Shown here piece after piece: positions 3,456-47,702 of a stretch of DNA of 64,000 bases; within the stretch, counting starts at the first letter, position 1, and the number at the start of each line of letters is the position of its first letter. This DNA is from Saprospira grandis DSM 2844 (GTDB taxonomy: Bacteria; Bacteroidota; Bacteroidia; Chitinophagales; Saprospiraceae): NCBI RefSeq assembly GCF_000275825.1, contig NZ_JH719942.1:2863928-2927927 (forward strand), given 5' to 3'. The notes under the pieces were generated by a model that searched no databases, was not told the origin of the DNA, and worked only from the letters and a program-made list of their open reading frames with translations. The translations under genes and the position numbers were made by a program.

Positions 3456-4196
3456 TTAGATAGCGGTTACCTTTCGGTCCACCTTCATAATTTTGCGTAC
3501 TTCTGCGACCTCCACCATAAAGGGGTCATGTTCTAGGTAGTTATCAGAAATAAGTTTGAGATGAGTTAGTCGATTTTTGTTAAAGACCTTTTGGATGCGT
3601 TTAACTTGGACGCCATGGCTACTGACGATGGCGTAGACTTCATTTTCTTGAACCCTTTCGATACCTTCTAGGGGGCGGCAGATGACCAAATCTCCATTGC
3701 TGAGAGTAGGTTGCATAGAGTCGCCACTAATTGTAAAGGCCACATAATCGCCTTGAGAGAGGCCGGGCAGGCTAAAATACTGTCCTTCCTCATAGGAATC
3801 TATGCCTAGGGCCGAGCTAGCAAAAGCGGCCTGGCTAGAATATAAGATTTGGGAGCCATATCCATAATCGGAGGCTAATTCGCCATTGGCGAAGGCGGGA
3901 GCGTCTTCCTCGCCGAACATGGGGCCTTTTCCTTGGAGCAGATAATCCTTATTGACGCCAAATTCTTCACAAAAGCGGCTGGCTTTATCAAAATCGATAG
4001 CGCGGCTACTTTGGGGGTTGAGAAATGCGCGGACTAGATGCCCGTTTCCTTTTTTGTCCCAAAAGAGCAAAGAGAGTTTGGTCATCCCTTTATCGTGGCT
4101 ATTGGGGACAATATCCCCTTTTTCCTCTAAGGCTTTAAAGGCCTTGATAAAACGACGATTCATGGCTAAGCGCTTCTCCTTTTTTTGATTTTTCAT
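3456..4196 (-). CDS. LexA/CI-like repressor with S24 autopeptidase domain
   Basis: A 246-aa protein with an N-terminal helical DNA-binding region of the XRE type (about residues 10-90, ending VNKDYLLQGKGPMF). The C-terminal S24 domain shows the catalytic serine in SGDSMQPTLSNGD (Ser160) and the catalytic lysine in VQVKRIQ (Lys199). Family knowledge: such proteins repress promoters and cut themselves when RecA filaments or other signals appear, as LexA and CI do. Here the gene stands alone, with its own minus-strand promoter and terminator and no phage genes nearby. I therefore read it as a stand-alone stress regulator rather than a prophage repressor. The true lexA of this organism may be elsewhere. 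Confidence 0.85.
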   Translation of the reverse strand: MKNQKKEKRLAMNRRFIKAFKALEEKGDIVPNSHDKGMTKLSLLFWDKKGNGHLVRAFLNPQSSRAIDFDKASRFCEEFGVNKDYLLQGKGPMFGEEDAPAFANGELASDYGYGSQILYSSQAAFASSALGIDSYEEGQYFSLPGLSQGDYVAFTISGDSMQPTLSNGDLVICRPLEGIERVQENEVYAIVSSHGVQVKRIQKVFNKNRLTHLKLISDNYLEHDPFMVEVAEVRKIMKVDRKVTAI

Positions 4197-4242
4197 AGTG
4201 GATCATTTGGCGAGCAGAGGAGGAACAAGTCCCCTTGCGCTA

Positions 4243-4273
4243 CAAATCTAAAACAAATCCGTTTAAAAACAAA
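4243..4273 (-). promoter_or_regulatory. Promoter of the S24 repressor gene
   Basis: On the minus strand TTTG (4273-4270), 19 bp, then TAGATTTG (4250-4243) is a full match to the Bacteroidota promoter form. It lies 47 bp before the start codon. Confidence 0.65.
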
Positions 4274-4414
4274 TAGTTGCATATATTTTTGCAAATAAAA
4301 ACAGGAAGTTGTATCTTGTTGGAGATAAGAAGGGGAATCCTAAGCCACTATTATTAAATGAATTGATTAAGTCTTACTTTTGGGCGGGGTTTTAAAAGCG
4401 CTGCTTATATTCTG

Positions 4415-4577
4415 CGGCAGGGGCGAGCGAAGCGAGCCGGCTGAGGGATGGACAGCAGTGGCGCGTAGCGGCAGACCCAGGGCTTTTGAAGCGAAGCGAA
4501 AAAGCCTGCAGGGCCGAGCAGACCTGCGAGCTGCGAAACAGCCCGACCCCGAAGGAACTGAGGGGGCAGCCCCAAAA
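4415..4577 (-). repeat. GGGGC-family intergenic element, copy 3 (subfamily III)
   Basis: On the minus strand it starts GGGGCTGCCCCC at 4573 and carries the core GCTCGCAGGTCTGCTCGGCC, an imperfect stem AGGCTTTTTCGC...AAAAGCC and a CTCAGCC tail. Its GGGGC end faces the glycosyltransferase start, 25 bp away. Confidence 0.72.
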
Positions 4578-4598
4578 AACAACAGGCTAAAAAACAGT

Positions 4599-5696
4599 AT
4601 GAAACGGATTCTTTTTGTGGCTTTACATCGGCCAAATCGCTCGCCTTCACAGCGTTTTCGGTATGAGCAGTATTTAGATTTTTTGGAGGAGCATGGTTAT
4701 GAGTATGAGCTCTCTTATTTGATTGAGGCGGAGGATGATCCTGTTTTTTATGGAGCGGGGCAGTATTTGGGTAAAATGAGGGTATTGTTGAAGAGTGTTT
4801 GGCGGCTTTGGCGGGCTTCTGGGTCTTGGGCCAAGCAATTTGATGTAATTTATGTGCAGCGGGAGGCCTTTATGTTGGGGACTTCTTTTTTTGAGCGTCG
4901 TTTTGCTAAGCGGGCGCCCTTAGTTTTTGACTTTGACGACTCTATATGGTTGCAGAATGTATCGGCTAATAATAGTGCTTTAGGGTTTTTGAAGAATGCG
5001 AATAAGACGGCGGAGTTAATTGCTTTGGCGGATATGGTATTTGCGGGGAATTGTTATTTGGCGGATTATGCTAGGCAATATAATGATTGTGTAAAGGTAT
5101 TGCCGACGACTGTGGATGAGCAGCGGCATCATCCTAAATTTAAGCCGGCTAAGGCGGCGGATGCGGCGGTTTGTATTGGTTGGACGGGGAGTTTTTCTAC
5201 GGTACAATACTTTGAGCAGTTGTTGCCGGTTTTGCGTCGTTTGAAGGAGAAGTATGGGGATAAGATATACTTTAAGTTGATAGGGGATGCGAATTATAGT
5301 TTGCCTGAGTTGGGCATTCGGGGGGTAGCTTGGACTGAAGCGGATGAGATGGAGCAATTGGTGGAGTTGGATATTGGTTTGATGCCTTTGCCGACGGATG
5401 AATGGACCAAGGGGAAATGTGGCTTGAAGGGTTTGCAATATATGGCTTTGGGTTTGCCTGCGGTGATGTCGGCAGTGGGGGTAAATACGGAAATCATTGA
5501 GCAGGGCGTCAATGGTTACTTGGCGCATAATGAGGAGGAGTGGTTTGCGCAGCTTTCGGCTTTGATTGAATCGGCGGAGTTGCGGGAAAAGCTGGGCCGG
5601 GCGGGTCGTCAAAGGGTGTTGGAAGAGTATGCTGTAGTGGCTCAAAAGGAGCGTTATTTGGCCTTTTTTGATGAATTAGTGGCAAAGAAAAAGTAG
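4599..5696 (+). CDS. Glycosyltransferase, GT4-like
   Basis: A 365-aa protein. I start it at ATG 4599 (MKRILFVALHRPNRSP) because the longer open frame upstream runs through repeat element 3. It has the two-lobe GT-B look of glycosyltransferases: an N-terminal lobe with FDFDDSIW (about 110-117) and a C-terminal nucleotide-sugar lobe with FKLIGDANY, MGLPAVMSAVG-like and EQGVNGYLAHNEEEW segments. Such enzymes move a sugar from a nucleotide donor to lipid- or polysaccharide-linked acceptors at the inner face of the membrane. The substrate is unknown, and no neighbouring polysaccharide genes help. The codons here favour G-ending forms (TTG, GCG, GGG), unlike genes further right. Confidence 0.85.
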   Translation: MKRILFVALHRPNRSPSQRFRYEQYLDFLEEHGYEYELSYLIEAEDDPVFYGAGQYLGKMRVLLKSVWRLWRASGSWAKQFDVIYVQREAFMLGTSFFERRFAKRAPLVFDFDDSIWLQNVSANNSALGFLKNANKTAELIALADMVFAGNCYLADYARQYNDCVKVLPTTVDEQRHHPKFKPAKAADAAVCIGWTGSFSTVQYFEQLLPVLRRLKEKYGDKIYFKLIGDANYSLPELGIRGVAWTEADEMEQLVELDIGLMPLPTDEWTKGKCGLKGLQYMALGLPAVMSAVGVNTEIIEQGVNGYLAHNEEEWFAQLSALIESAELREKLGRAGRQRVLEEYAVVAQKERYLAFFDELVAKKK

Positions 5697-5824
5697 GGGA
5701 GGGGAGCGTTGGTTATTTAGGGCTTGTGAAATCTGCTTGAAAAGTTAAGCGTCTAATTGGTTTTTTGCTATTGATTTCTGTATCTTTCTGGAGAAGAATT
5801 ATAAAAACAGTAAAGAACAGTTAT

Positions 5825-36204: not shown

Positions 36205-37437
36205 CTACTTCTTATCTGGCATCTCCTCCATAAACTCCACCTTCTTTTCATGGCCGATATTCATGGTAGGTGTCCCTTTGTAATCTGTAATTTTCCCCTT
36301 TACACAAATTTGCTTGCCATAGAGTTCCGTCTCTGGCGAATAAGAAAAATGCTTGATATCCTTGCCCCAGATGGTTACGGAAAAAATCTGGTTGGGAAAT
36401 TTTGTGTCCAGATTGATAAAGACAGAGCCCGATTTGGTTTTCTTGGTGGATACCACTGTGCCGCAAACGCAGGCTTTTTGGTTCATAAAGACGGGGGCAT
36501 CGGCGGTGCTGATACAGTCTTTGGGCAACTCCTCATTGCTGAGGGGAGGAACATCGGCCAGGCGACCTTCCGTTGTTTTCTCCCAGCTAGAAGGGTCCTT
36601 CATGGCTTCTAGGCGCTTTTCTTCCGCTTCGGGCAAATTGCTAAAGAAATCTAAGCCCGTTTGGGCCTCCACCTCATCTACCGAGACGGCATAGCTGATT
36701 GTGGGGTTGTTGCAGTGGCCATTTTTCATGATAAAACCGATGGCTTTGGGCTGCTCGGCCTCTAGGTCCAAAACCACCTTGAAAAAGGCCTCGGGAATGC
36801 TCACTTTATTTGGGCCTTGCGTAATTTGCGGCAAGCCCTCTTTCAAAATAGGGCCAGTAATGACCAAGATCGAGCGTTTGTGAGAAAAGACAGCTCCTCG
36901 GACCCAGCGCTCCAAATCGGCCCAGCCCTCTCGGTTAAATTCGGGCAATTGGGGGCTCATGTTAGAGTAATAATAGGACTCACTAATGGCCGTTTTGGAC
37001 CAGCGGAAATCCGCAGAAGGGGCCAAATGCCCACGGTCGTAACCACTATACCAGTAGTCGGCTTTTACCGCAGTTCCGCTACTCACCAGCTCATCTTCTC
37101 TAAAATCATTGGTTCGGCTAAGGTTGCCTTCCATCATGGCGGGCGGAATAATATGGGCCACCCAGGCGGCCTGTTCATGGGCCTCCGAATAGTTCAGAAT
37201 CATGGCGGCATGCTCTACCAATTCCCCTTTTACGCCATCTTTGGGCAATCCCACTTTCTTCAAATCGGCTCTAATCTTTTGTAGGCGGATGTTTTCAATT
37301 TGCTCAATAAGGGCGGCTTTTTGTTCGTCTAGGCTTTGCTTTTGGGCTTCTAGTTTTTGTAGTTCTTGACCAAGGTTTTGGCTCCAAAGGCAAGCCGGTA
37401 GGGCCAAGATAAAGGCCCATAAAGTAAGTTGACGCAT
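36205..37437 (-). CDS. Secreted DNA/RNA non-specific endonuclease (NUC1 type)
   Basis: 410 aa with a signal peptide (LTLWAFILALPACLWSQ), a short coiled coil, then a NUC1 domain: YDRGHLAPSADF (DRGH at 134-137, His137 the catalytic base), NMSPQ with metal-binding Asn159, and EFNREGW. The family cuts single- and double-stranded DNA and RNA with Mg2+ in a beta-beta-alpha-metal fold. The last 100 residues (CVCGTVVSTKKTKSGSVFINLD...KGKITDYKGTPTMNI) look like an OB-fold that may bind nucleic acid. Expected in the periplasm or outside, for nutrient scavenging or DNA from prey. It is a lone gene. Confidence 0.88.
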   Translation of the reverse strand: MRQLTLWAFILALPACLWSQNLGQELQKLEAQKQSLDEQKAALIEQIENIRLQKIRADLKKVGLPKDGVKGELVEHAAMILNYSEAHEQAAWVAHIIPPAMMEGNLSRTNDFREDELVSSGTAVKADYWYSGYDRGHLAPSADFRWSKTAISESYYYSNMSPQLPEFNREGWADLERWVRGAVFSHKRSILVITGPILKEGLPQITQGPNKVSIPEAFFKVVLDLEAEQPKAIGFIMKNGHCNNPTISYAVSVDEVEAQTGLDFFSNLPEAEEKRLEAMKDPSSWEKTTEGRLADVPPLSNEELPKDCISTADAPVFMNQKACVCGTVVSTKKTKSGSVFINLDTKFPNQIFSVTIWGKDIKHFSYSPETELYGKQICVKGKITDYKGTPTMNIGHEKKVEFMEEMPDKK

Positions 37438-37797: not shown

Positions 37798-38215
37798 GGC
37801 GGTTTTTTTAGAGAAAAACAACCGTATCGCCTAGCTCTTCAGCCAGAAATAGGCCAGAAACAACCGTCTAGGGCGCTGCTGCAGCCCACAAACAGCCCTA
37901 GCCTTGCGCCAGCCTTCCTCTGCAGTTGCAAAATGGCCCAGAGAAATCCCCAGAGCTAATCTGCAGTTTACAAACTCCTCCGGGCGTATCTAGAATGTCC
38001 TATCTTTTTTTTCTGGACCCAACCTACTACAGTTTAACAATAGGCGCTTAGCGGCAAAATATATCAGCCCTTTGACTTTTTACCCTTCTTTTTGCAGCGA
38101 GAAAGAAAAACCCCCATTTTTTTGCTTAAAAAAATCGCTAATGTCATCAAAAAGCGATAATATGAGCTACAAATTAAGACCAGAGCCCTAAAAAGCCCAT
38201 TTTATCCTTTTGCCG
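37798..38215. other. Gene-free leader region of the retron island
   Basis: About 420 bp between repeat element 13 and the WGR/ARM gene. No gene is supported. The only structure I see is the inverted repeat ATCGCT/AGCGAT at 38136-38160, 55 bp before the start codon. It could be an operator, but the arms are only 6 bp. Confidence 0.35.
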
Positions 38216-41200
38216 ATGAAGCTAATAGAACAAAAGCGCCTGCATTTTAAGCAGGGCAATTCTGATAAAGTATATGAAGTAGACCTTTGCGAATTGGAAG
38301 CAGGGGCCTTTCTAGTAAATTTCCGTTATGGGAAAACGGGCGGCCCTTTAAGAGAGGGCAGCAAAACGCCCAGCCCTGTAGATGAAACCAAGGCCCGCAG
38401 TCTGTACAATAAATTGCTACAGGATAAAATGAAAAAGGGCTATTTGGATGTCTCTGAAAAGAGTCAGGCCAAGCAAGTAGCGGCTATTCAGCCCCCAGCT
38501 AAATCTCTAGAAGGAGAGGACGCCCAAATAGCTTGGATCCTATACCATTTGCAGCTCGCTCAACTAGATCCAGCAGCCCAAAAGGCCCGCAACTGGAAGT
38601 TGTCTAGGGTCGCTTGGCGTGCCGCCAGCCTCAACATCAAAGCGGCTGGACCCTATTGCTGGGCCCTTTTTGAGCAAAACCATAGAGGCAAATCTATAGA
38701 CGATATGGAGCTCTATAGCCTACTTTGGGCAACCGCTCAACTCGATACAGCCGTAGAGGACCCCAGCAACTTATTAACTTTTTGGCGAAGCAAGAAAAAA
38801 GCGCCTAGCGCTAAAAAACTAGCGCCCTTTGTCTATTGGGAACTAGCCGATGCCGCCAGACAGCAGGCTTTGCTCGAAGAGGAGCTGCCCAAACTCCCTG
38901 AACTCTGGCAAAAGGCCTTGGATCGTAAAGATAATGATGCTTTGGCCTATCAGCTACGCAAGGCCAAAGGAGATAAAAGCATGGAGGAAGCATTTGCTAT
39001 GCTTTATTTATTGTCTCCTGCCATGCCTTATTGTCGCAAGCCCTTAGTAGAAGTCATTTGCGAAATGGAGTTCCGGCCCAATAGCTTCCGTTTGCTGCGT
39101 CGCCTCTTCAAAATGGCCACCTTTCGCAAGGATGCACAGTTTTGGGGCGCCTTGGCCTACCGTTTTGAAAAAGCGAGCCCGCAGTATAGAATGCCCCGCC
39201 GCAATAATCAATATGTTTGGGTCAGCTATAATCGTATGCGGCCCAAAGATGAGTTGAAAAAAGAAAATAGCCGTCTGGCCTTCTCAAATTTGACCAAGGA
39301 CTACTTTAGCGATTATATGCGTAAGGAGTTGGACCAATTGGGGCAAAAAGGAAATATCGCCTATGTCGCTATGGCCACAAGCCTCCTCCTCCAATATGAT
39401 GATAACCGAGATGGCCGCACAGATCGCCGAGAAAAGAACTGGCGATTTGATAATAAAAAACAACGCTGGATTGCCAGCGTATATCATTATCCTAGCTATT
39501 CTAAGGAGCTAATATTTAACGAGATTCTTTATGCCAATAGCCAGCGATATGTTTATTCTCCCATGAAACAAGAATGGGTGTATGGCGAGCATTATGATCC
39601 AGATATGCCCTTGCCGGCCCCACTTTCAGAAACTAAATATGCCGAGCTCTGGCAGCAGGAACCCAAGGCCTTTTTGCACCTAATGGCCGAGGCCAAAAGC
39701 CAAAAGGTCCTAGAGTTTGCCCATACGGCATTTATGGCCCATCCCATGGCCAAGAGCTTGCAAAAGCGACTGGGCTTATCTTACTGGAAACAGCTATTGA
39801 GCCGCCCCTATCAGCCACTGCAAACTTGGGCCCTCCAAGAAATTGTGGCCAATTATGAAAAGTCAGGCAAGCCCACGGCTATCCTACTTTACCTTTTGGA
39901 CCATGATTATGTAAAGGCCAGAGAACAGGCTTTGGCTTGGCTAGAAGCTGATTTCTTTGACTATTTTGCCGACCTAGATTTGGTCTATAGTCTCTTATTG
40001 CACCAACGCAAAGATTTGAGAAATTGGGCCCAAGAGGCCTTGGGACGTATCGTGGAGCTGTATGAAGCCGCCAAACGTCAAGCGCTTTTGGGCCGTTTGC
40101 TGGGCTTCTTGCTCCGCTCGGGCCAAGATCAACAGCTCCTAATGACAGAGGTGGAATCGCTGCTGAAGAGCTACTTTGTGGACGAAACTCAACAACTCAG
40201 CCTAGATTTAATCGGGAAGTTTTTACGCCTGCCTTTGGCACAGCAACAAGCCTTCGGTTTGTATTTGCTTAAGGGCCATGCAGCAGAAGCTACACAAATT
40301 CCCTTTGAAGATATTCAATATCTCTTTGGCAAAACAGCCGATTATTGGCGCTATGGCTTAGAACTGCTCCGCCATTCTTCAGAGCAAAAGCTCTTGCAAG
40401 AAGGCGACTTCCTTTTGGGCCTTTTAGAACATCGAGAAGAGGATGTGCGCTTGGCCAGCCGTGAAGTTTTGGCCCCACTCTATGCCCAAAATCAAGCTTT
40501 TGCTGTTGATCAAATGCAACAGCTCTTGCGCAAACTGATCCGCAAAGAAAAAATTGAGGGCTTACACGCGCTCTTTGCCGATATCTTAACTAGCGAACTA
40601 GAGGGCCATTTGGCGGAGGTAGACCGGAAGTTTATTTTCCGTCTGCTCAATGCAAAATATGCCCCAGCACAAGAGTTGGCCGCCGTCTTAATTGATCGCT
40701 ATATCCCTTATGACTCTTTGTCGGTAGCCAATACCGTTCGTCTGGCCAATCATGAAATTGTAGCCGTTCGCGAGCTCGCCTGGAAGATGTTTAAGGAGCA
40801 AAAAGATCGTATGCGCTACGAAAGAGAAGAAGCTTTGCGTCTACTAGATGTAGATTGGGCCGATTCTCGACAATTTGCCTTTACTTTCTTTGGAGAAGCT
40901 TATACCGCAGAAGATTGGAACCCTAGTTTGATGGTGGGCATCTGCGATTCGGTTCGCCAAGATGTACAGCAGTTCGGTCGCCAGCTCATTACTCGCTTCT
41001 TTGAGGAAGAGGATGGCCCCATGTACTTGGAGCAATTGAGCCAGCACCCCCGTCCAGAACTACAACTCTATGCAACTAATTATTTAGAGCGCTTTGGGGC
41101 TGGACATCCTGAGCGGATTCTATCGCTACGCGATTATTTCTATACCGTTTTGGCCCAAGTCAATAAGGGCCGAATAGCCAAAGATCGCATCTGGAGCTTT

Positions 41201-41386
41201 TTGGCCAAAGAGGCCAAAGCTTCTTTTGAAGTAGCGCAATTCCTTTCTGATCTAGCTACTTTTATCTCGGCCACCGCAGCTATTGGCGATAAGGAGCAAG
41301 CCGTTATTGTGCTACGCGATTTGCAAGACCAATATCCCCTGCTCGAACAGCCTATTGCGATTCACGATTATCCCACTCAATCTTAG
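38216..41386 (+). CDS. WGR-domain protein with helical (ARM/HEAT-like) repeats, retron-associated
   Basis: 1056 aa from ATG 38216 (MKLIEQKRLHFKQGNSDK); a TTG at 38210 could add two residues. Residues about 1-78 form a WGR domain (VYEVDLCELEAGAFLVNFRYGK...), a nucleic-acid-associated fold also found in PARPs and MolR-like proteins. The rest is almost all helical, with ARM/HEAT-like repeats in the C-terminal half (LLEHREEDVRLASREVLAPL, NHEIVAVRELAWKMF). No catalytic motif is evident. It lies 11 bp before the WHSWIM gene, and both precede the retron RNA and reverse transcriptase. From memory, ARM-repeat and WHSWIM proteins are the accessory pair of one retron class (type XIII). Role inferred: effector or sensor controlled by the msDNA complex. 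Confidence 0.8.
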   Translation: MKLIEQKRLHFKQGNSDKVYEVDLCELEAGAFLVNFRYGKTGGPLREGSKTPSPVDETKARSLYNKLLQDKMKKGYLDVSEKSQAKQVAAIQPPAKSLEGEDAQIAWILYHLQLAQLDPAAQKARNWKLSRVAWRAASLNIKAAGPYCWALFEQNHRGKSIDDMELYSLLWATAQLDTAVEDPSNLLTFWRSKKKAPSAKKLAPFVYWELADAARQQALLEEELPKLPELWQKALDRKDNDALAYQLRKAKGDKSMEEAFAMLYLLSPAMPYCRKPLVEVICEMEFRPNSFRLLRRLFKMATFRKDAQFWGALAYRFEKASPQYRMPRRNNQYVWVSYNRMRPKDELKKENSRLAFSNLTKDYFSDYMRKELDQLGQKGNIAYVAMATSLLLQYDDNRDGRTDRREKNWRFDNKKQRWIASVYHYPSYSKELIFNEILYANSQRYVYSPMKQEWVYGEHYDPDMPLPAPLSETKYAELWQQEPKAFLHLMAEAKSQKVLEFAHTAFMAHPMAKSLQKRLGLSYWKQLLSRPYQPLQTWALQEIVANYEKSGKPTAILLYLLDHDYVKAREQALAWLEADFFDYFADLDLVYSLLLHQRKDLRNWAQEALGRIVELYEAAKRQALLGRLLGFLLRSGQDQQLLMTEVESLLKSYFVDETQQLSLDLIGKFLRLPLAQQQAFGLYLLKGHAAEATQIPFEDIQYLFGKTADYWRYGLELLRHSSEQKLLQEGDFLLGLLEHREEDVRLASREVLAPLYAQNQAFAVDQMQQLLRKLIRKEKIEGLHALFADILTSELEGHLAEVDRKFIFRLLNAKYAPAQELAAVLIDRYIPYDSLSVANTVRLANHEIVAVRELAWKMFKEQKDRMRYEREEALRLLDVDWADSRQFAFTFFGEAYTAEDWNPSLMVGICDSVRQDVQQFGRQLITRFFEEEDGPMYLEQLSQHPRPELQLYATNYLERFGAGHPERILSLRDYFYTVLAQVNKGRIAKDRIWSFLAKEAKASFEVAQFLSDLATFISATAAIGDKEQAVIVLRDLQDQYPLLEQPIAIHDYPTQS

Positions 41387-41397
41387 TCTAGCTCAAT

Positions 41398-43065
41398 ATG
41401 TTATTTAATTATAAGTATGGAGGAACTTCCTCTGTGAAGAATAAAGCTGGGCAAACGGCCATGTCTTTTGCCCCCGATAGTTTGCGCGAGCCTACTTTTT
41501 TTGTGGGCCAATTGCATAAGAAAATTGCCTTTAGAGAAGCCATCTCTGCCTTGAATGCCGTAGTCGTTTCTGACCTTCGCTTCAAACCCCGAGATAAATC
41601 TGCCTATTTGGCCTGGGCCAAAGAACAAGAAGAGGTTTGGCTGGCACAATACCTTGGCGAAATCGCCGGAGATGAGGCCAATATCAAACAACGTATCGAA
41701 GATATTTCTGTAGAATTGGCTGGGGTAGAAGAGCAGGAACGAGGCGTGATGCAACATTTCTACAAAAAACAAAGAGAGTATTTTAATTACCTCTATAAAA
41801 AGGATTTTGATGCCTGGATCGTACTAGATCCCGTCATCACTACTCATCCCGATAGCATTTTCTTTGAGTGCTTTAGCCAAGATGAATCTACTTATGGTAA
41901 GCTCAGCTGTGGCTATAATGTCTTTAAAAATATTGATGAGTTTTCTTGCGGAACAACCAATATCGATTACTCCGCAGCCCTCTATAATGAGTTTCAAAAG
42001 ATTCGAAACTATAAGGAAACCGATTTTCGGGTAGATCCTTCTGGCTTTGAAATCCAAACGGAGGACCAAGACTTATATAAGGAGGTCAAAATTGACCTGC
42101 CCGAAAGCTGGGTCCGCGGCTTCCTTCAAGTGAGCTCTGCCATGACGATGCCGCTCATTCGCTTTGATTTGCATCCTATGGATATTCACAGCATCTGCCA
42201 GCTTTTGCGCCGCTTTAAAGAAACACATGGCCCCCGCTCTTTGCGCTTTCAGCTTCGCCCCGGCCAGCCCGTTAAAGTAGTGGTAGAACCTTGGAATAAA
42301 GAAATTATCTGCCGCCGCTCTATTTATCATGGGCCAAAAGCAGAGGAGGTCCGCATTTGGGGCCGCCGCCGCTTACTCATCTTAGAGCGCCTGATTCCAC
42401 AAGCCAAAAAGTTTACGGTCAGCTTTCTCGGATCTGGTTTGCCTTCTTTTTATGAGGCCCAACTCGAGGGAGATATGGTCTTTACTTTGGGCCTTTCTGG
42501 CTGGACCGATAACGATTGGTCCAGAGCGGGCAACTTTGATCTGCTCGCCCCTCGCTTAGAGGTAGACGATTGGACCAAACAAACCGTTTTTGAGGCCCTC
42601 AAAACTACTTATTTCGAATCCGTAGATAGCCTGGCAGAACGCCTGCAGTTAGGTACAGATATCGTCAGCGCTTCTTTACAAGCCTATACCCAAGCGGGCC
42701 GAGTGATTTTTGACCCTACCTTGGGCGTCTACCGCCTGCGAGAATTGCATCGGGAACCGCTCGATATGAAATTACTCCGCTTTGCTTCGCCTCAAGAGGA
42801 AAAAGCCAATAAGATTTTGGACCAAAACCGCCTCAGCAATTTATCGGCAGAGGCACAGCAAAATGGCCAAACTCGACTGTCAGCACAGATCAAAGGAGAA
42901 CAACGCAATTACCAATGCCAACTCCTGATCGATGCCGATGACCGTATGGTCCAAGCCGAATGCAATTGCAATCATTTTCAAATGAATAAATTGCGCAAAG
43001 GCCCCTGCGAACATATCCTAGCCACTCGTATGGCCCATAATCGCAAAACTGGAAAACTGATCTAG
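41398..43065 (+). CDS. Winged-helix/SWIM zinc-finger protein, retron-associated (WHSWIM)
   Basis: 555 aa from ATG 41398, 11 bp after the WGR/ARM gene. Residues about 385-455 read as a winged helix (TVFEALKTTYFESVDSLAER...AGRVIFDPTLGVYRLREL), and the C-terminus is a SWIM zinc finger of the form CxCx12CxH (Cys522, Cys524, Cys537, His539 in CNCNHF...GPCEHILA). SWIM domains bind DNA or proteins in transposases and in plant and RNA polymerase-like proteins. The first 380 residues match nothing I know. This domain pair is the mark of one retron class, and the gene sits 600 bp before the retron reverse transcriptase. It is probably the second part of the toxin or its regulator. Confidence 0.82.
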   Translation: MLFNYKYGGTSSVKNKAGQTAMSFAPDSLREPTFFVGQLHKKIAFREAISALNAVVVSDLRFKPRDKSAYLAWAKEQEEVWLAQYLGEIAGDEANIKQRIEDISVELAGVEEQERGVMQHFYKKQREYFNYLYKKDFDAWIVLDPVITTHPDSIFFECFSQDESTYGKLSCGYNVFKNIDEFSCGTTNIDYSAALYNEFQKIRNYKETDFRVDPSGFEIQTEDQDLYKEVKIDLPESWVRGFLQVSSAMTMPLIRFDLHPMDIHSICQLLRRFKETHGPRSLRFQLRPGQPVKVVVEPWNKEIICRRSIYHGPKAEEVRIWGRRRLLILERLIPQAKKFTVSFLGSGLPSFYEAQLEGDMVFTLGLSGWTDNDWSRAGNFDLLAPRLEVDDWTKQTVFEALKTTYFESVDSLAERLQLGTDIVSASLQAYTQAGRVIFDPTLGVYRLRELHREPLDMKLLRFASPQEEKANKILDQNRLSNLSAEAQQNGQTRLSAQIKGEQRNYQCQLLIDADDRMVQAECNCNHFQMNKLRKGPCEHILATRMAHNRKTGKLI

Positions 43066-43075
43066 CAACTTTTTT

Positions 43076-43216
43076 GGGGCCTCCTGCCTGCGGCAGGCGC
43101 TACGTTTCAGGGCTCGCTATTCGCTCGGCCCTTCGGCGCTTTCAGCGCCTCGGTCTGGCCTGACGGCCACCCTTACACATCGCTAGGCCTGCGGCGGCTT
43201 CGCCGCCTGTCTACCG
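43076..43216 (+). repeat. GGGGC-family intergenic element, copy 14 (subfamily II)
   Basis: GGGGCCTCCTGCCTGCGGCAGGCGCTACG, cut here to its parts: stem CCTGCC/GGCAGG, GCTACGTTTCAGGGCTCGC, core variant TATTCGCTCGGCCC, stem GGCGCTTTCAGCGCC and tail ACATCGCTAGGCC plus GGCGGCTTCGCCGCC. It starts 10 bp after the WHSWIM stop codon, in sense, and splits the retron effectors from the ncRNA. Confidence 0.78.
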
Positions 43217-43274
43217 CAAAAAGGACCAAAGCTTCACTATTTTGATAATTTTTTGAAAAAATTTAAATAAAAAC

Positions 43275-43305
43275 TTGACAAGCTGCTAAAGAATATCTAT
43301 CATTG
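43275..43305 (+). promoter_or_regulatory. Predicted promoter of the retron ncRNA
   Basis: TTG (43275-43277), 20 bp, then TATCATTG (43298-43305), one base off TAnnTTTG. Transcription would start near 43312, just ahead of the a1 arm. This would express ncRNA and reverse transcriptase apart from the two effector genes. Confidence 0.5.
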
Positions 43306-43311
43306 TAACAG

Positions 43312-43605
43312 ACAAATGGGGATGACAAGCATCTCTATATAGATATTGAAAAGAAGGATCAAGAGAAGACAAAGTCTTGCAAAAAGAGCGCTGTTTCGGC
43401 GTTCAAGCGATATTACTCTTCACTGTTCACTAAGGAAGAATCTTTATGATGCGAACTGCCGTAGGTGCCCCTACTACGTCCCCTACGCGGTTTCGAGTCG
43501 TAGACTCTGTAGGGGACGTAGTAGGGGCACCTACGGCAGTTCGCTGGAGTTGATTCTCTTAGTTCTAAGATTGTACGAAGTAAATCTTCTCTCCTTCTTT
43601 TTTTC
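43312..43605 (+). ncRNA. Retron msr-msd RNA
   Basis: Template and primer RNA for msDNA. The a1 arm (43351-43368, AAGAAGGA and GAGAAG) pairs with the a2 arm (43586-43599, CTTCTC and TCCTTCTT) with a 4-base bulge. The msr carries a compact hairpin GAGCGCTG/CGGCGTTC with a UUU loop (43386-43404), a usual msr element. The msd has a basal stem (43430-43442 with 43552-43562) and then a perfect 36-bp stem, 43451-43486 with 43509-43544. That stem is capped by a 22-base loop which itself holds GAGTC-gta-GACTC. Reverse transcription from near a2 to about 43435 would give an msDNA of roughly 150 nt. The exact branching G and the msDNA ends cannot be read by eye. The start is set by the predicted promoter. 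Confidence 0.82.
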
Positions 43606-43613
43606 TTTTGCAG

Positions 43614-43680
43614 CTACTTTCAATTTTGGACCAGCTAGGCTTCGGCTTTAGTTCTCCCAAATTGAAAGTAGTTTTTTTTT
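43614..43680 (+). terminator. Hairpin with T tract between retron ncRNA and reverse transcriptase
   Basis: A perfect 13-bp stem CTACTTTCAATTT (43614-43626) with 43659-43671, an inner TTCG-capped stem, and then nine T (43672-43680), ending 17 bp before the RT start codon. It has the form of a Rho-independent terminator and may let most transcripts end after the ncRNA while some read on into the RT. Confidence 0.7.
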
Positions 43681-43697
43681 GCCTTAATCTGCTCCCT

Positions 43698-45272
43698 ATG
43701 TCTGACCACAGAATGACCCGTCAACAGATTTACGACCGTATCCGCCAAACTTCTAAAGAGGAATATATCTTAGAAGAAATGAAACGCCTTGGCTTTTGGG
43801 ATACAACTGAAGAGGCTCCAAAAATCTCTGAGGAGATTATCCAAAAGAAGGGCGCTCTCCGAAGAGAACTGCGTGAGCTGATGGAAAAGCAACGCATGTT
43901 CCGAGATAAGGAGCGCATGCTGGCCGAAATGCGTAAAAAACGCATGGCCGATGCCCTAGCTCGCCGAGAGGAGACCAAGGAGCGCCGTAAGGCAGAGAAA
44001 GAAGCCCGCGCTAAAGCTTGGCAAGAAAAGAAAGAGCGGAGTATTGTCTTTTTGGGTAAAGACTATTCTGCTGGCTTGAGCCAAGAAAAAGCGGATCTGG
44101 AGAAATTGGCCGCTTTGAATTTACCGGCCTTTCAGGATATAAAGGAATTGGCAGAGGCTATGGATATTTCTGTAGGCCGTTTGCGCTACCTTTGCTTTCA
44201 ACGGAAGCTCTCTACGGTATCGCATTATGAGCGCTTTTATTTGGCCAAGAAAACGGGAGGGAAACGCCTGATCTCAGCGCCTCGTCCTATGCTTAAAAAT
44301 GCCCAATATTGGCTGCTAGAGAATGTGCTTTCTCGCTTAGAGATGCATGAAGCTGCTCATGGCTTTGTGCCTCAGCGCTCTATTGTGAGTAATGCTAAAC
44401 TGCATGAGAAAAAAGAGCTGGTCATCAATATGGACCTCAAAGACTTTTTTCCTACCGTAACCTACCCTCGAGTGAAGGGGATGTTTAAAGGATTGGGCTA
44501 TTCGGAGCAACAGGCCATTATTTTTGCCCTATTGACTACAGAGCCAGAGGTGGACCAAGTAGAAATAGATGGGCAATTGTATTATGCCCAAAAGGGAGAA
44601 CGCTATTTGCCGCAGGGTGCCCCTACTAGTCCAGCTATTACCAACTGGCTTTGCCGCCGCATGGACCGCCGCTTTGAGGGCGTAGCCAAAAAACTAGGCT
44701 GGACCTATAGCCGCTATGCCGATGATCTGAGCTTTTCTGCTAATGATACGAGCAATATTAGCCGTATAATTTGGCAGGCCCAGCAGATTATTCAAGATGA
44801 AGGCTTTGTGATGCACCCCAAAAAACTCAAAATTATGCGTAGAGGTCGCCGCCAAGAGGTAACGGGCCTTACGGTAAATGAGAAAGTGGCTGTAGACCGC
44901 AAAACCTTGAAGAAATTTAGAGCTTGTTTGCATACCATAGAAACTAAAGGCTATCAAGCCGCAGAATGGGGCCAAGGATTTATTTTGGCTAGCATTAAGG
45001 GCTTTGCAAATTATGTTCGTATGGTACAGGCCGATAAGGGCCAAGTGCTTTGTGAGCGAGTGGACCGCATTTTGGCCAAGGAAGAAAACAAGCAAGCATG
45101 GAAGGCCTATTTTGCTAATCCTAGCACCAAAAAATATGCTTATGAGGCCCAAAAACAACAAGCTAAAACAGAAGAGAATGCCGTAGATTTGGGCAGCTCT
45201 GGTTTGGCAGAAAGCTTAACCCCCGTAGACCCTCAGCAAAAAGATGAGGAGCAATGGTGGAGCCTTTGGTAA
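43698..45272 (+). CDS. Retron reverse transcriptase
   Basis: 524 aa from ATG 43698 (MSDHRMTRQQIYDRI); the ATG at 43608 is rejected because its extension would be encoded by the hairpin and T tract. Residues 1-120 are a highly charged helical extension, opening with a QTSKEEYILEEMKRLGFW segment. The RT domain (about 175-445) shows the retron mark NAxxH (NAKLH, 232-236), catalytic Asp246 in NMDLKDFFPTV, QGAPTSPAITN (306-316), YADD (340-343) and VTG (388-390). It uses the msr RNA as 2'-OH primer and copies msd into a branched RNA-DNA hybrid. The N-terminal extension recalls the long myxobacterial msDNA enzymes. With the WGR/ARM and WHSWIM genes it forms a probable anti-phage retron. Confidence 0.93.
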   Translation: MSDHRMTRQQIYDRIRQTSKEEYILEEMKRLGFWDTTEEAPKISEEIIQKKGALRRELRELMEKQRMFRDKERMLAEMRKKRMADALARREETKERRKAEKEARAKAWQEKKERSIVFLGKDYSAGLSQEKADLEKLAALNLPAFQDIKELAEAMDISVGRLRYLCFQRKLSTVSHYERFYLAKKTGGKRLISAPRPMLKNAQYWLLENVLSRLEMHEAAHGFVPQRSIVSNAKLHEKKELVINMDLKDFFPTVTYPRVKGMFKGLGYSEQQAIIFALLTTEPEVDQVEIDGQLYYAQKGERYLPQGAPTSPAITNWLCRRMDRRFEGVAKKLGWTYSRYADDLSFSANDTSNISRIIWQAQQIIQDEGFVMHPKKLKIMRRGRRQEVTGLTVNEKVAVDRKTLKKFRACLHTIETKGYQAAEWGQGFILASIKGFANYVRMVQADKGQVLCERVDRILAKEENKQAWKAYFANPSTKKYAYEAQKQQAKTEENAVDLGSSGLAESLTPVDPQQKDEEQWWSLW

Positions 45273-45291
45273 ATTAGCCGAGGCAAAAAGA

Positions 45292-45326
45292 AAGCCCCCG
45301 CAGTCATTTGACTGCGGGGGCTTTTT
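45292..45326 (+). terminator. Rho-independent terminator of the retron RT gene
   Basis: Perfect 14-bp stem AGCCCCCGCAGTCA with its complement, two-base loop, then TTTTT. It begins 20 bp after the stop codon. Confidence 0.87.
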
Positions 45327-45339
45327 GTTGGCCCAAAAG

Positions 45340-45657
45340 TACATATCGTTTAGGGCGCTAGAGGCCGACCGAAGGGAGGACTGGCCACAACAAGCCCTTT
45401 AGGGCGCAGTTCGACGACTGAAGGGAGTAACCGATGTGCAGCAGTTATTAAGGCCGAGCAAAGGGATCTAAGGCAAATAGCGAGCGGCAATAAGCAGTCT
45501 TGAAGAGGCGCTAGAGGCCGACCGAAGGGAGGACTGGCCTAGCGATGTGCAGCAGTGGCCCAAAGGGCCAGACCCAGCCGCCAAAGGCGGCGCAGGGCCG
45601 AGCAGACCTGCGAGCTGCGCAACGTAGCGCCGACGACCAAAGGGAGGCGGAGGCCCC
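45340..45657 (-). repeat. GGGGC-family intergenic element, copy 15 (subfamily II, composite)
   Basis: On the minus strand a full subfamily II unit runs from GGGGCCTCCGCC (45657) to TAGGCC (45538) with the core GCTCGCAGGTCTGCTCGGCC and a GCCGCC/GGCGGC stem. To its left lie partial modules with ACAAGCCCTTTAGGGCGCAG and GACGACTGAAGGGAG as in copy 6, and a twice-repeated AGGCCGACCGAAGGGAGGA (45361, 45505). The GGGGC end is 21 bp past the stop codon at 45679. Confidence 0.75.
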
Positions 45658-45678
45658 AAAACAGCAGTATCCTAGGCC

Positions 45679-46413
45679 CTAAATCTGTTCGACAGCAGTG
45701 GCAAACAAATAATTGAAGGCGATCATTTGGCCCATAAAGCCAGAGGCATAGCCGCCATAGACCTCTTTTATTTTATGGGCGCCGAGGAGTAGGCGAGCTG
45801 TACCTACTAGGCCGGCCAGTAAAACCACCCAAATTAACAAGTAGCTTTGGCCATCATAGCTTCTGCTAACGGCAAGTAGCGTCATGGCCACTAGGCCGCC
45901 CATGCCTGTAGTATGCACACTAATTTTACTAAATAGATTGAAGAAAAAAGAGATGAACAGCGCAATTGTGCTGCCCAAAGCAAAGGCCGTTAGTTCTAGA
46001 GGGACGCCGGGATTATTCTTGAAATTGACAAAAATGATCATATATAAGAGGCCCACTACGATATAGGGGCCGATGCGTTCCATGCGGCCAGGCATCTGCA
46101 GGGAAGAGACAAAATTGAGGGCCCGCATCATGAGGACCGTGAGCAGAGGGACCGCAAAAGAGAAAATGGCCAGCCAAATAAAGAGCATACTATTGACCTT
46201 ATTCTCGAAAACGGCGGCAAAGCTACTGACCCGAAACAAAAAGGGATTGCAATAGGCCAAAAGGACAAAGGCGTAGAGCAAAATCAGAAAAGGGTGGAAG
46301 GCCAGAGAAAGAGCTTGGGCCAAAAGGACCAAAATGGCTGGTTGTTGGGCCTGCATATACTCTGCTTGAAGGACCTCTTGTTCGAGTTCTATATCTTCAT
46401 TTTTCATACTCAT
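45679..46413 (-). CDS. PAP2-like membrane protein
   Basis: 244 aa with about six membrane helices. The motifs KISVHTTGMGG (SxHxxxxxG) and LLGAHKIKEVYGGYASG (AHxxxxVxxG) match the second and third parts of the PAP2 lipid-phosphatase signature; the first part (KxxxxxxRP) is not clear. PAP2 enzymes remove phosphate from lipids such as undecaprenyl pyrophosphate. It is the last gene of a three-gene minus-strand run with the Lnt-like and secreted-protein genes (8 and 18 bp gaps), so an envelope role is likely. Activity is uncertain without the first motif. Confidence 0.75.
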   Translation of the reverse strand: MSMKNEDIELEQEVLQAEYMQAQQPAILVLLAQALSLAFHPFLILLYAFVLLAYCNPFLFRVSSFAAVFENKVNSMLFIWLAIFSFAVPLLTVLMMRALNFVSSLQMPGRMERIGPYIVVGLLYMIIFVNFKNNPGVPLELTAFALGSTIALFISFFFNLFSKISVHTTGMGGLVAMTLLAVSRSYDGQSYLLIWVVLLAGLVGTARLLLGAHKIKEVYGGYASGFMGQMIAFNYLFATAVEQI

Positions 46414-46421
46414 GAGCTAAA

Positions 46422-47702
46422 TTATTTTTTACGGAAGGGTTTGACAATGCTGGCTAAAGCCAACCAGGCCGCCAAAAAGATAGATAATCGCCCAGGTAAA
46501 TCGCCATATTGGGCAAAAAATGTAGGGCTCCATATTTTAGGTGTGCAACTTTGGCCATCTTCTAGGGCTTGGTAGTCGCCATTGGCCAAAAAATGATGAG
46601 CTTTCTTATTTTGGACCAAAATAATATCGCTGCCACTCTCTTGGGCGCGGGCCCTAGCCGAGCGGTATAAAATCGGCGATAAACTGCTGTCTGGACTAAA
46701 GGCAATAACGGTTTGTGCTCCTTTTTGCAGGCCCTCTCGGATAGGGGCCGTACGGTTTAGGCTATGGGCATTGAGCAAAAGCAGGCGAGAGCCCTGCCAA
46801 TCGATAAACTGAAAAAAGCGCTGCTCTACCCCCAATATGGTCCGAACAGAAAAGGCTTGGCTACTCAGTTGTTGGCGTTCTCCTTTTTGCCAAAACCGAA
46901 GGCTGCCCAAGCTATCTTGCCCAGCCAAATAGGCCCAATCATTTAAGGTTTTTTCTTGAGCATAAAGGGCATTTTCTGGAATCTCTTCTTTTGGTGCTTG
47001 GCCCAGCAGCAAGCGGCCCTTTTGGTTTGTATAAGTAGATTGATAGGTAAAACTGCCCGAATCTCCCTTTTGCCCTGGCCCCATAAACAAGCTGAGGACA
47101 AAGGGAAGGAGGAGCAAAGGAATGCCGGCCCAAATAGCGCCTTTTCTACTTTTGGCTTGGGCCGGAAAGAGAAAGCGAAATAACTGAATATTCAGGCTGA
47201 GTATCCATAAACTAGCGCCTCCAGTACCCACAACCGTTAAGGCCTGCCAGCTATTTCCAAAAAGTAGGGGCAAGCTCCCTAGCTGCCAACCGGCCCAATG
47301 CCCACTAAACTGCCCTTGCATCCACTCTAGGGCCAAATAGCTACTCACAAAAGCCCAATAGCCCAATTTGGCATTGTGCCGATGATGAATCAGCCAAAGC
47401 ATGGCCCAGGGAATACTAAACAACAGACTTACAAAGGCCCAAGAAAAGAGCCCCATAGATAGGGTTACGGCCTCTACGGCCTCGGGGGCCAAGAGGCCAT
47501 AAGTAAGTAGGTTGCTTAAGATACTAAAGCCTACAAAAGGCCAAAAGCTCTGCCTTCTACTAAGCCAAAGCAAAGGAATAAAGGCAAAGAAAGCCGTCAA
47601 TAGAATACTATATGTCGAAAGGCTAAAGGCCAGCAGTAATCCACTGCCCAAACTAGCCACTAAGGCCCAAATAAGAGGGGCTTTTGCTTGCTGCGTCTCC
47701 AA
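46422..47702 (-). CDS. Apolipoprotein N-acyltransferase-like protein (Lnt-like), shortened nitrilase domain
   Basis: 426 aa against about 510-550 for Lnt. The N-terminal half has six or more membrane helices and the Lnt-like stretch ALEWMQGQFSGHWAGWQLGS (about 147-166). The C-terminal nitrilase part is reduced: the segment around LLLLNAHSLNRTAPIREGLQ stands where Lnt has its catalytic Cys (VCFE-like), and no Cys is present there. A final membrane helix (LSIFLAAWLALASIVKPF) is kept. Lnt adds a third acyl chain to lipoproteins. This divergent form may be inactive or have another substrate. It is in the middle of a three-gene operon. Confidence 0.65.
   Translation of the reverse strand: METQQAKAPLIWALVASLGSGLLLAFSLSTYSILLTAFFAFIPLLWLSRRQSFWPFVGFSILSNLLTYGLLAPEAVEAVTLSMGLFSWAFVSLLFSIPWAMLWLIHHRHNAKLGYWAFVSSYLALEWMQGQFSGHWAGWQLGSLPLLFGNSWQALTVVGTGGASLWILSLNIQLFRFLFPAQAKSRKGAIWAGIPLLLLPFVLSLFMGPGQKGDSGSFTYQSTYTNQKGRLLLGQAPKEEIPENALYAQEKTLNDWAYLAGQDSLGSLRFWQKGERQQLSSQAFSVRTILGVEQRFFQFIDWQGSRLLLLNAHSLNRTAPIREGLQKGAQTVIAFSPDSSLSPILYRSARARAQESGSDIILVQNKKAHHFLANGDYQALEDGQSCTPKIWSPTFFAQYGDLPGRLSIFLAAWLALASIVKPFRKK

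Follow-up and report, generated by a model that had tools for sequence, protein, structure and literature searches.

A type XIII retron of Saprospira grandis and its relatives: mispair polarity points to msd helices selected as DNA

For many retrons, it is unclear which property of the msDNA is sensed by the effector, and this question arises anew at a locus of Saprospira grandis where the msd contains a stem of 36 bp with no mismatch: is it the sequence of such a stem that is kept, or the duplex as such? Here, we examined this locus within the window (the entire stretch of 64,000 nucleotides analysed) and compared it with related loci, and the type XIII retron family to which it belongs suggests that the duplex is kept and the sequence is not. 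At the family level, the interest lies in stems with DNA-like mispair polarity, in arrays of msr-msd units and in a predicted clamp-fold partner protein, none of which turned up in limited literature searches. Within the open literature searched, no paper covers both a retron and a WGR domain, and the papers on retrons and SWIM were irrelevant; judged from their titles and abstracts, papers with three of the terms retron, sliding clamp, PCNA and SWIM do not seem to bear on the subject. A word look-up in the main text of PMC12548924 found no XIII, WGR or Mx162. Type XIII itself is mentioned for Variovorax, as called by PADLOC (PMC11953036).

The locus and its msr-msd RNA

The list of open reading frames and a reading of positions 42000-46500 reveal two plus-strand genes, a structured intergenic RNA and then a reverse transcriptase (RT) gene (Table 1). 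In this Saprospira grandis genome, PADLOC calls WGR_XIII, SWIM_XIII and RT_XIII consecutively, each model being the best match for its protein, so that the complete type XIII trio is present, and the msr-msd RNA with its paired a1 and a2 arms adjoins the RT gene, as in retrons generally. The locus is a further member of the already known type XIII, with no departure from the type seen within the window. The RT carries the expected retron motifs, namely YADD (within R-Y-A-D-D, residues 339-343), NAKLH (232-236), corresponding to NAxxH, the region X motif of retron RTs, and VTG (388-390). Among six aligned RTs (A1), R339, Y340, D342, D343, N232, A233, H236, V388, T389 and G390 are invariant, and A341 is replaced by V in two. 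Regions X and Y and the VTG motif are described as features of retron RTs in PMC6868368. Comparison of the RT with plasmids at an E-value of 1e-60 gave one Methylobacterium record. The same genome encodes a second RT domain (G000:C2:2167213-2167779), and a gene for a DNA/RNA non-specific endonuclease (Pfam Endonuclease_NS) lies near the retron, on the opposite strand, at 36205-37437.

The RT has an N-terminal extension of about 140 residues and ends in WWSLW. Its best match among solved structures is the RT of Retron-Eco1 (Ec86; 7v9u, E 5.4e-38), but this match covers only residues 134-417 and leaves the extension unmatched; the effector genes of Retron-Eco1 also differ from those found here. 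An extended RT N-terminus is instead shared with Retron-Mxa1 (Mx162) and the myxococcal Sa163, Ne144 and Mx65, which likewise have large msDNAs (162 nt in Mx162), and putative cyanobacterial retron RTs are placed with the myxococcal ones in the same account (PMC6868368).

The msr-msd reading of the intergenic RNA, proposed in a first-pass annotation made from the letters alone, is strongly supported, and we consider it very probable that the RNA is functional. Sequence inspection, folding and an inverted-repeat search place the a1/a2 arms, the msr hairpin, the basal msd stem, the 36-bp stem and the cap hairpin where they had been described, and the two arms of the long stem form a 100% complementary inverted repeat around a 22-nt loop. 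Folding of 43340-43610 yields -133.2 kcal/mol (z -12.7), a value reached by none of 200 shuffles. The extent of a1/a2 had to be revised: the pairing given as 43351-43368 with 43586-43599 is real and in fact longer, comprising 18 pairs and a 4-nt bulge (-21.4 kcal/mol), and further inside, CTT at 43376-43378 can pair with AAG at 43578-43580, beside the likely priming G. By analogy with known retrons, the RT would prime on the 2'-OH of G43379 and copy from about G43577 to about 43428; with these predicted ends, the product would have the length of about 150 nt that had been claimed, and its core would be the 36-bp duplex.

As a rule, the msd stem of a described retron includes mismatches or wobbles, of which the 36 bp here have none, and the context of the predicted priming guanosine, UUGC, compared by description, differs from the myxococcal CAGC or GAGC and is not among the contexts listed in PMC6868368 (TAGC, CAGA, CAGC, GAGC and ACGC).

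An ordinary terminator or repeat was considered and rejected for the long stem, which has no other long match in its own genome (contig C1 gives a partial match of 19 bases, E 0.7), and a search of Rfam gave nothing relevant, the best match being a microRNA hairpin below the gathering score. A terminator-like hairpin with a T run (43614-43680) does lie between the ncRNA and the RT gene and may set the ratio of one to the other; a terminator scan restricted to loops of 3-8 lists none at 43614-43671. Similar hairpins occur 3' of the ncRNA at two related loci (L074 and L093). The 19 bases at 43672-43690 recur in the genome as 25 further near copies (95%).

Table 1. Features of the type XIII retron locus, in window coordinates
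Feature	Position	Strand	Basis and remarks
WGR-HEAT protein gene (WGR_XIII)	38210..41386	+	start TTG 38210 or ATG 38216; PADLOC E 0, 1028.7 bits (38210-41383); Pfam WGR
SWIM zinc-finger protein gene (SWIM_XIII)	41398..43065	+	PADLOC E 2.9e-232, 769.7 bits (41398-43062); Pfam SWIM 505-542
Sigma-70-like promoter TTGACA-17-TATCAT, 5' of ncRNA	43275..43303	+	consensus match only, 11/12; region has 2 sites vs 0.9 in shuffles
a1 arm	43348..43369	+	pairs with a2 43585-43602
Predicted priming (branching) guanosine, in CUUGC	43379	+	adjoins a1/a2 helix, within conserved CTTGC; analogy with known retrons (PMC6868368)
msr hairpin, 8 bp, UUU loop, two G.U pairs	43386..43404 (43386-43393/43397-43404)	+	fold; helix 2 of family alignment, 98.0% of cells paired
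Predicted msDNA (cDNA), ~150 nt	43428..43577	-	cDNA strand folds at -56.7 kcal/mol, z -14.9; helix 3/4 wobble polarity places basal stem within cDNA
Basal msd stem, 5' strand	43429..43442	+	R1 helices 3 and 4: 95.3% and 92.6% of cells paired; mispair counts in text
5' arm of the long msd stem (36 bp, no mismatch)	43451..43486	+	inverted repeat; 6 compensated changes vs L041
Cap loop, including a CGGT motif and the 5-bp hairpin GAGTC-GTA-GACTC	43487..43508	+	sequence; identical in L041
Long msd stem, 3' arm	43509..43544	+	inverted repeat
Conserved GAGTTG, 3' of long stem	43547..43552	+	invariant in 28 A2 rows; GAGTTG or near forms served as anchors for collecting rows
Basal msd stem, 3' strand	43552..43563	+	fold; family alignment
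a2 arm	43585..43602	+	pairs with a1; fold and duplex comparison
Terminator-like inverted repeat then T run, between ncRNA and RT	43614..43671	+	17-bp arms, 94% complementary, 24-nt loop
Retron reverse transcriptase gene (RT_XIII)	43698..45272	+	PADLOC E 8.4e-188, 623.1 bits (43698-45269)

Relatives and the polarity of mispairs

The six RTs were used to scan genome contigs, and the best 80 of 464 relatives were retained; type XIII-like loci were found in cyanobacteria as well. Among these best 80 of 464 loci, a SWIM relative is present in the flanks of 72, a WGR relative in 68 and both in 67, all on the strand of the RT, and the SWIM gene lies 5' of the RT in 57 loci and 3' in 15; neither relative was found in the available flanks of L042, L047, L056, L066, L075, L095 and L099. 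The common RNA was located with simple anchors within 3 kb upstream of the RTs, and 28 units, with the window left out, were aligned with MAFFT (A2) and turned into a covariance model (R1). Searching 87 sources with R1 produced 98 matches at E-values up to 1, 73 of which begin with CTTGC, some rows beginning elsewhere in poor alignments; the window was recovered at E 2.8e-17 despite its absence from the model, and its own genome is matched at one place, the retron locus. At least one match was obtained in 74 of the 80 genome-contig loci (again, the best 80 of 464), with none in L047, L056, L066, L075, L099 and L114, of which L047, L066 and L075 have no more than 235 bases upstream of the RT. 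Under stricter filters, R1 matched 5 genomes in an even draw of 395 from the phylum. Each of these 5 has a strong SWIM_XIII match, and together they make up all but one of the six genomes in which SWIM_XIII matches at E 1e-169 or better; R1 did not detect the remaining one, G280, nor did it do so when run on L039.

On these comparative grounds, the RNA is shown to be a conserved structured unit. In the alignment of 95 distinct rows (A3), which is fitted to the R1 model and so favours the structure, 93.7% of cells pair versus 67.0% in shuffles, 1002 cells are changed on both sides versus 303, and the covariation score is 0.678 versus 0.196 when shuffled and 0.074-0.130 when slid. Two-sided changes affect 32 of the 38 model pairs, a count not clearly above shuffles (67 of 500 as high), and the number of further pair types does not exceed them (422 of 500 as high). 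The MAFFT alignment, which is not fitted to the structure, displays compensation at 30 of the 38 predicted pairs. The pairing of a1 with a2 is likewise kept, contrary to the outcome that would have refuted the first-pass annotation: cognate duplexes average -20.3 kcal/mol versus -8.3 kcal/mol for non-cognate ones, and when each of 96 units was ranked against 40 non-cognates, including close relatives with similar arms, the own partner was best in 62, second or third in 19 and lower in 15.

A G.U pair is tolerated in RNA and reads C.A in the cDNA; a C.A mispair in the RNA strand corresponds to G.T in the cDNA. The polarity of mispairs thus offers a test by which genomes alone can tell which retron RNA helices live as DNA. 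In the 95 distinct rows, msr helices 1 and 2 contain 157 G.U, 4 C.A and 63 other mispairs, whereas the basal msd helices 3 and 4 contain no G.U, 32 C.A and 25 others. Helix 5 (3 G.U, 4 C.A, 22 others) and helix 8 (1 G.U, 11 C.A, 5 others) were counted in the same rows; helix 8 is mixed: for the window, and probably for further rows with long stems, its columns fall in the long stem rather than the cap. Helices 6 and 7 run contrary to the pattern (30 G.U, 13 C.A, 44 others); in this length-variable tip, the consensus looks one base out of register in many rows, as judged by reading the sequences. The a1/a2 duplexes of 96 units hold 132 G.U, with single mismatches of 9 C.A and 25 others, a count that leans towards G.U because the duplex program seeks such pairs.

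Counting without an alignment gave the same direction for the long hairpins: among 89 distinct ones with 1939 pairs, there are 35 C.A, 5 G.U and 1 other mispair, the C.A being spread over 28 loci and the G.U over 3, and 54 hairpins are perfect. Fitch reconstruction on the RT tree of 77 loci yields gains of G.U and C.A, respectively, of 26 and 1 for helices 1-2, 0 and 9 for helices 3-4, 2 and 3 for helix 5, and 1 and 5 for helix 8, the difference between helices 1-2 and 3-4 being significant (Fisher p 1e-7). The window itself conforms, with two G.U pairs in the 8-bp msr hairpin and none in the 36-bp stem or in the basal pairs checked. Since mispairs are G.U in the msr and mostly C.A in the msd, this comparison of sequences shows selection that evidently sees the msr as RNA and the msd, from the basal stem inward and including the long stem, as the reverse-transcribed DNA strand. 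It also lends indirect support to the production of an msDNA, which would be 2'-5' branched.

Stem sequence and unit arrays

The nearest named relative among the best 80 of 464 is S. grandis Lewin (L041), with an RT 96% identical to that of the window. Between these two Saprospira genomes, the RNA outside the long stem differs at 0 of 193 positions (the backbone being identical at 111 of 111 and the cap at 22 of 22), whereas the stem is identical at 60 of 72 sites; 6 of its 36 pairs differ, and all 6 are compensated on both arms. Diversifying selection on the stem was considered and dropped: with an RT dS of 0.35 between the two genomes against 12 of 72 stem sites changed, and with the a1/a2 arms of arrays diverging too, drift under a pairing constraint suffices to account for the divergence. 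Nor do stems always change fast, given that those of L093 and L115, of L059 and L065, and of L060 and L061 are identical between species. The length of 36 bp as such is not essential either, because 44 of the 89 hairpins of relatives are of 20 bp or less.

The clearest comparison comes from loci with more than one unit. In 12 of 74 loci, the RT is preceded on its own strand by two to four msr-msd units: four in L070; three in L042, L044, L082 and L096; and two in L043, L045, L062, L076, L087, L109 and L118. The weakest full unit, in L045, has an E-value of 4.3e-7, and L042 has an additional fourth unit that is truncated where the contig ends (E 0.33). Units of one locus share 62-98% identity in the backbone but 22-76% in the stem, so that most stems are unrelated and yet paired. 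In L062, for example, the two units agree at 122 of 125 backbone and 31 of 31 cap positions but at only 10 of 28 stem positions, close to the 0.31 given by random 30-mers, and stem identity is similarly low in L087 (12/40) and L109 (10/46); other arrays, namely L096 (0.76), L042 (0.71), L118 (0.70) and L082 (0.67), keep related stems. Each a1 pairs best with its own a2 in 26 of 30 units, and in 9 of the 12 arrays all units match; the four units that depart from this are a near tie in L070, a unit in L043 and a pair of units in L044, the a1/a2 of the upstream units there being weak at the places taken. Taken together, these comparisons suggest that conservation acts on a DNA duplex almost free of mismatches and not on its sequence. 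Between the two units of L087 (Calothrix), positions 4182-5725 hold an open reading frame for a TPR protein and, on the opposite strand, one with a peptidoglycan-binding domain.

Some short words do recur. In a set of 69 stems that share less than 80% identity, 60 contain CTA/TAG, 56 GTA/TAC, 27 TACTA/TAGTA and 25 GTAC. TACTA/TAGTA was counted 28 times, compared with 11.1 in dinucleotide shuffles, none of 300 of which reached that number, and its density is 24.7 per kb versus 1.4 in the 6 kb around RT starts. This enrichment is real with respect to shuffles, is in part due to common descent, and possibly reflects a contact preference for TA steps. Dyad symmetry, which by eye seemed a striking feature of the stems, proved weak: in a comparison with 300 dinucleotide shuffles, z was 1.7 and 15 shuffles scored as high.

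Partner proteins and readings of the duplex

The model of the SWIM protein, built from 57 sequences (pLDDT 79.2, pTM 0.73), matches PCNA sliding clamps in a fold search (Foldseek E 3.9e-10, with viral clamps matched in BFVD); residues 34-371 align with PCNA at a VIA-align Z of 21.8 and an rmsd of 2.7 over 234 of 244 residues. SWIM_XIII is thus predicted, from this single model, to hold a two-domain PCNA-like sliding-clamp fold. It differs from PCNA in a long helical insert and in extra C-terminal domains with the SWIM zinc finger, whose C522, C524, C537 and H539 are the same in all 57 sequences; identity to PCNA is about 7-14%, and the 25 Pfam families listed, of 56 matched by the 57 members at E-values up to 10, do not include one for PCNA. 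At K201, R203, K206, R240, K274, R280, R283, R319, R323-R325 and R331, all those of the 57 sequences that have a residue at the position carry lysine or arginine, and such conserved basic residues would suit a candidate DNA-encircling ring. The bacterium's own sliding clamp is presumably of the DnaN type, and comparison of the SWIM protein with phages gave no match. The AlphaFold model of the WGR-HEAT protein (pLDDT 87.6, pTM 0.59) combines a WGR-like N-terminus with a long helical-repeat superhelix, and the 50 fold-search matches listed are helical-repeat proteins only, with low TM-scores.

The RT tail, often of low complexity, is a further shared trait: adjacent aromatic residues are present in the last 12 residues of 58 of 82 RTs versus 312 of 3346 background 12-mers, 54 of these tails remaining when 4 membrane-like ones are set aside, and WW is found in 45 of the 82. 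The tail is mostly absent from cyanobacterial RTs, and several gammaproteobacterial RTs and one from Desulfobacterales end in a hydrophobic stretch. That the aromatic tail binds the clamp is offered only as a suggestion.

We propose, as a reading that we consider rather probable, a type XIII msr-msd whose duplex would be held as a structure, not a sequence, by the partner proteins, probably the clamp domain and the WGR-HEAT protein, and infection would free them. As long as the complex of RT and msDNA is intact, it might restrain the SWIM and WGR-HEAT proteins; if a phage damages, unwinds or displaces the duplex, they might be released to harm the infected cell. This restraint until infection is taken from the general retron scheme and not from type XIII data; in that scheme, a toxic effector is held by RT, ncRNA and RT-DNA, as outlined in PMC12548924. 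Contact of the clamp with the stem is a tentative element: the PCNA-like fold of the SWIM protein suggests the msDNA duplex as the clamp ligand. More doubtful is the fuller view of type XIII as a DNA-hairpin sensor guarded by a clamp, in which clamp-SWIM and WGR-HEAT proteins sit on nearly mismatch-free msDNA duplexes, perhaps tethered by the RT tail, while drifting stems in arrays of two to four units, each with its own a1/a2, feed one RT, and phage clamps, clamp loaders or duplex-unwinding factors are sensed. Under this view, stems would be free to drift because only duplex DNA is required. A clamp-fold partner together with a free stem sequence makes the question testable by stem swaps.

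The first-pass annotation had seen in the stem a strong binding site or a mimic for phage or host DNA-binding proteins. A specific single site is weakened by stems that, within one locus, are often near chance identity under conserved backbones; what survives of the idea is that a near mismatch-free DNA duplex and short TA-containing words are kept. The proteins named there as likely triggers are at most candidates, the window sequence not pointing to a trigger. In its general form, the stem as a sequence-specific decoy or operator mimic whose binding triggers the system appears unlikely to us: the richness in TACTA/TAGTA, CTA/TAG and GTAC speaks for it, as does the fact that the Saprospira pair keeps 3 of the 4 CTAC/GTAG words of the arm (the fourth, at 43474-43477, being altered), but shared ancestry inflates the word counts, 3 of the 4 L070 units contain no CTA/TAG, and dyad symmetry is weak. 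Recognition of a mismatch, with a G.T near the tip binding MutS or a phage factor, could draw on the location of 29 of the 35 C.A mispairs (G.T in the cDNA) at 4-9 bp from the loop and on the titration of MutS by mismatched msDNAs reported for E. coli; with 54 of the 89 distinct hairpins, including that of the window, free of mispairs, and with fully complementary msDNA stems said not to raise mutation rates in the same source (PMC6868368), we regard it as very unlikely.

Two further explanations were weighed. If the perfect stem were a by-product of chromosomal inverted-repeat correction by template switching, with pairing unselected, compensation at all 6 changed Saprospira pairs, including four transversions located within or beside clusters, would be what correction does; a double-stranded process, however, should not prefer C.A over G.U on one strand (35 to 5 in long hairpins, 32 to 0 in the basal helices), and this asymmetry, with its reversal in the msr helices, calls for a single-stranded minus-strand product. 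Correction may help to keep the arms matched, but as the full explanation it is highly improbable. An antisense RNA would be such a minus-strand product, since its G.U also reads C.A on the plus strand, and formally fits the polarity of the msd helices; yet reverse transcription predicts a switch in polarity at the passage from msr to msd, which is where it is seen, the RNA is followed by an RT gene, and the one minus-strand promoter-like match (43328-43299) is located 5' of the ncRNA and directed away from the msd, which leaves this explanation extremely improbable. Structural recognition of a reverse-transcribed duplex remains our preferred reading, and perfect, sequence-tolerant stems of this kind may also serve as scaffolds for in-cell DNA production.

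In genome G285, on the contig that carries its type XIII retron and about 18 kb from that retron, positions 2224-6581 of L040 hold a WGR-DUF6493/7824/7825 gene paired with a SWIM_XIII-like gene without an RT; neither an RT nor an R1 match lies in the 12 kb covered. By PADLOC and Pfam, the two-gene architecture is that of the window partners, but the second protein, at 419 aa as read, is the shorter of the two SWIM_XIII-like proteins, Pfam detects no SWIM domain in it, and a stop lies inside the matched frame. Hence, msDNA is not the sole context of a WGR and SWIM_XIII-like pair, and the retron may have joined a pair that already existed.
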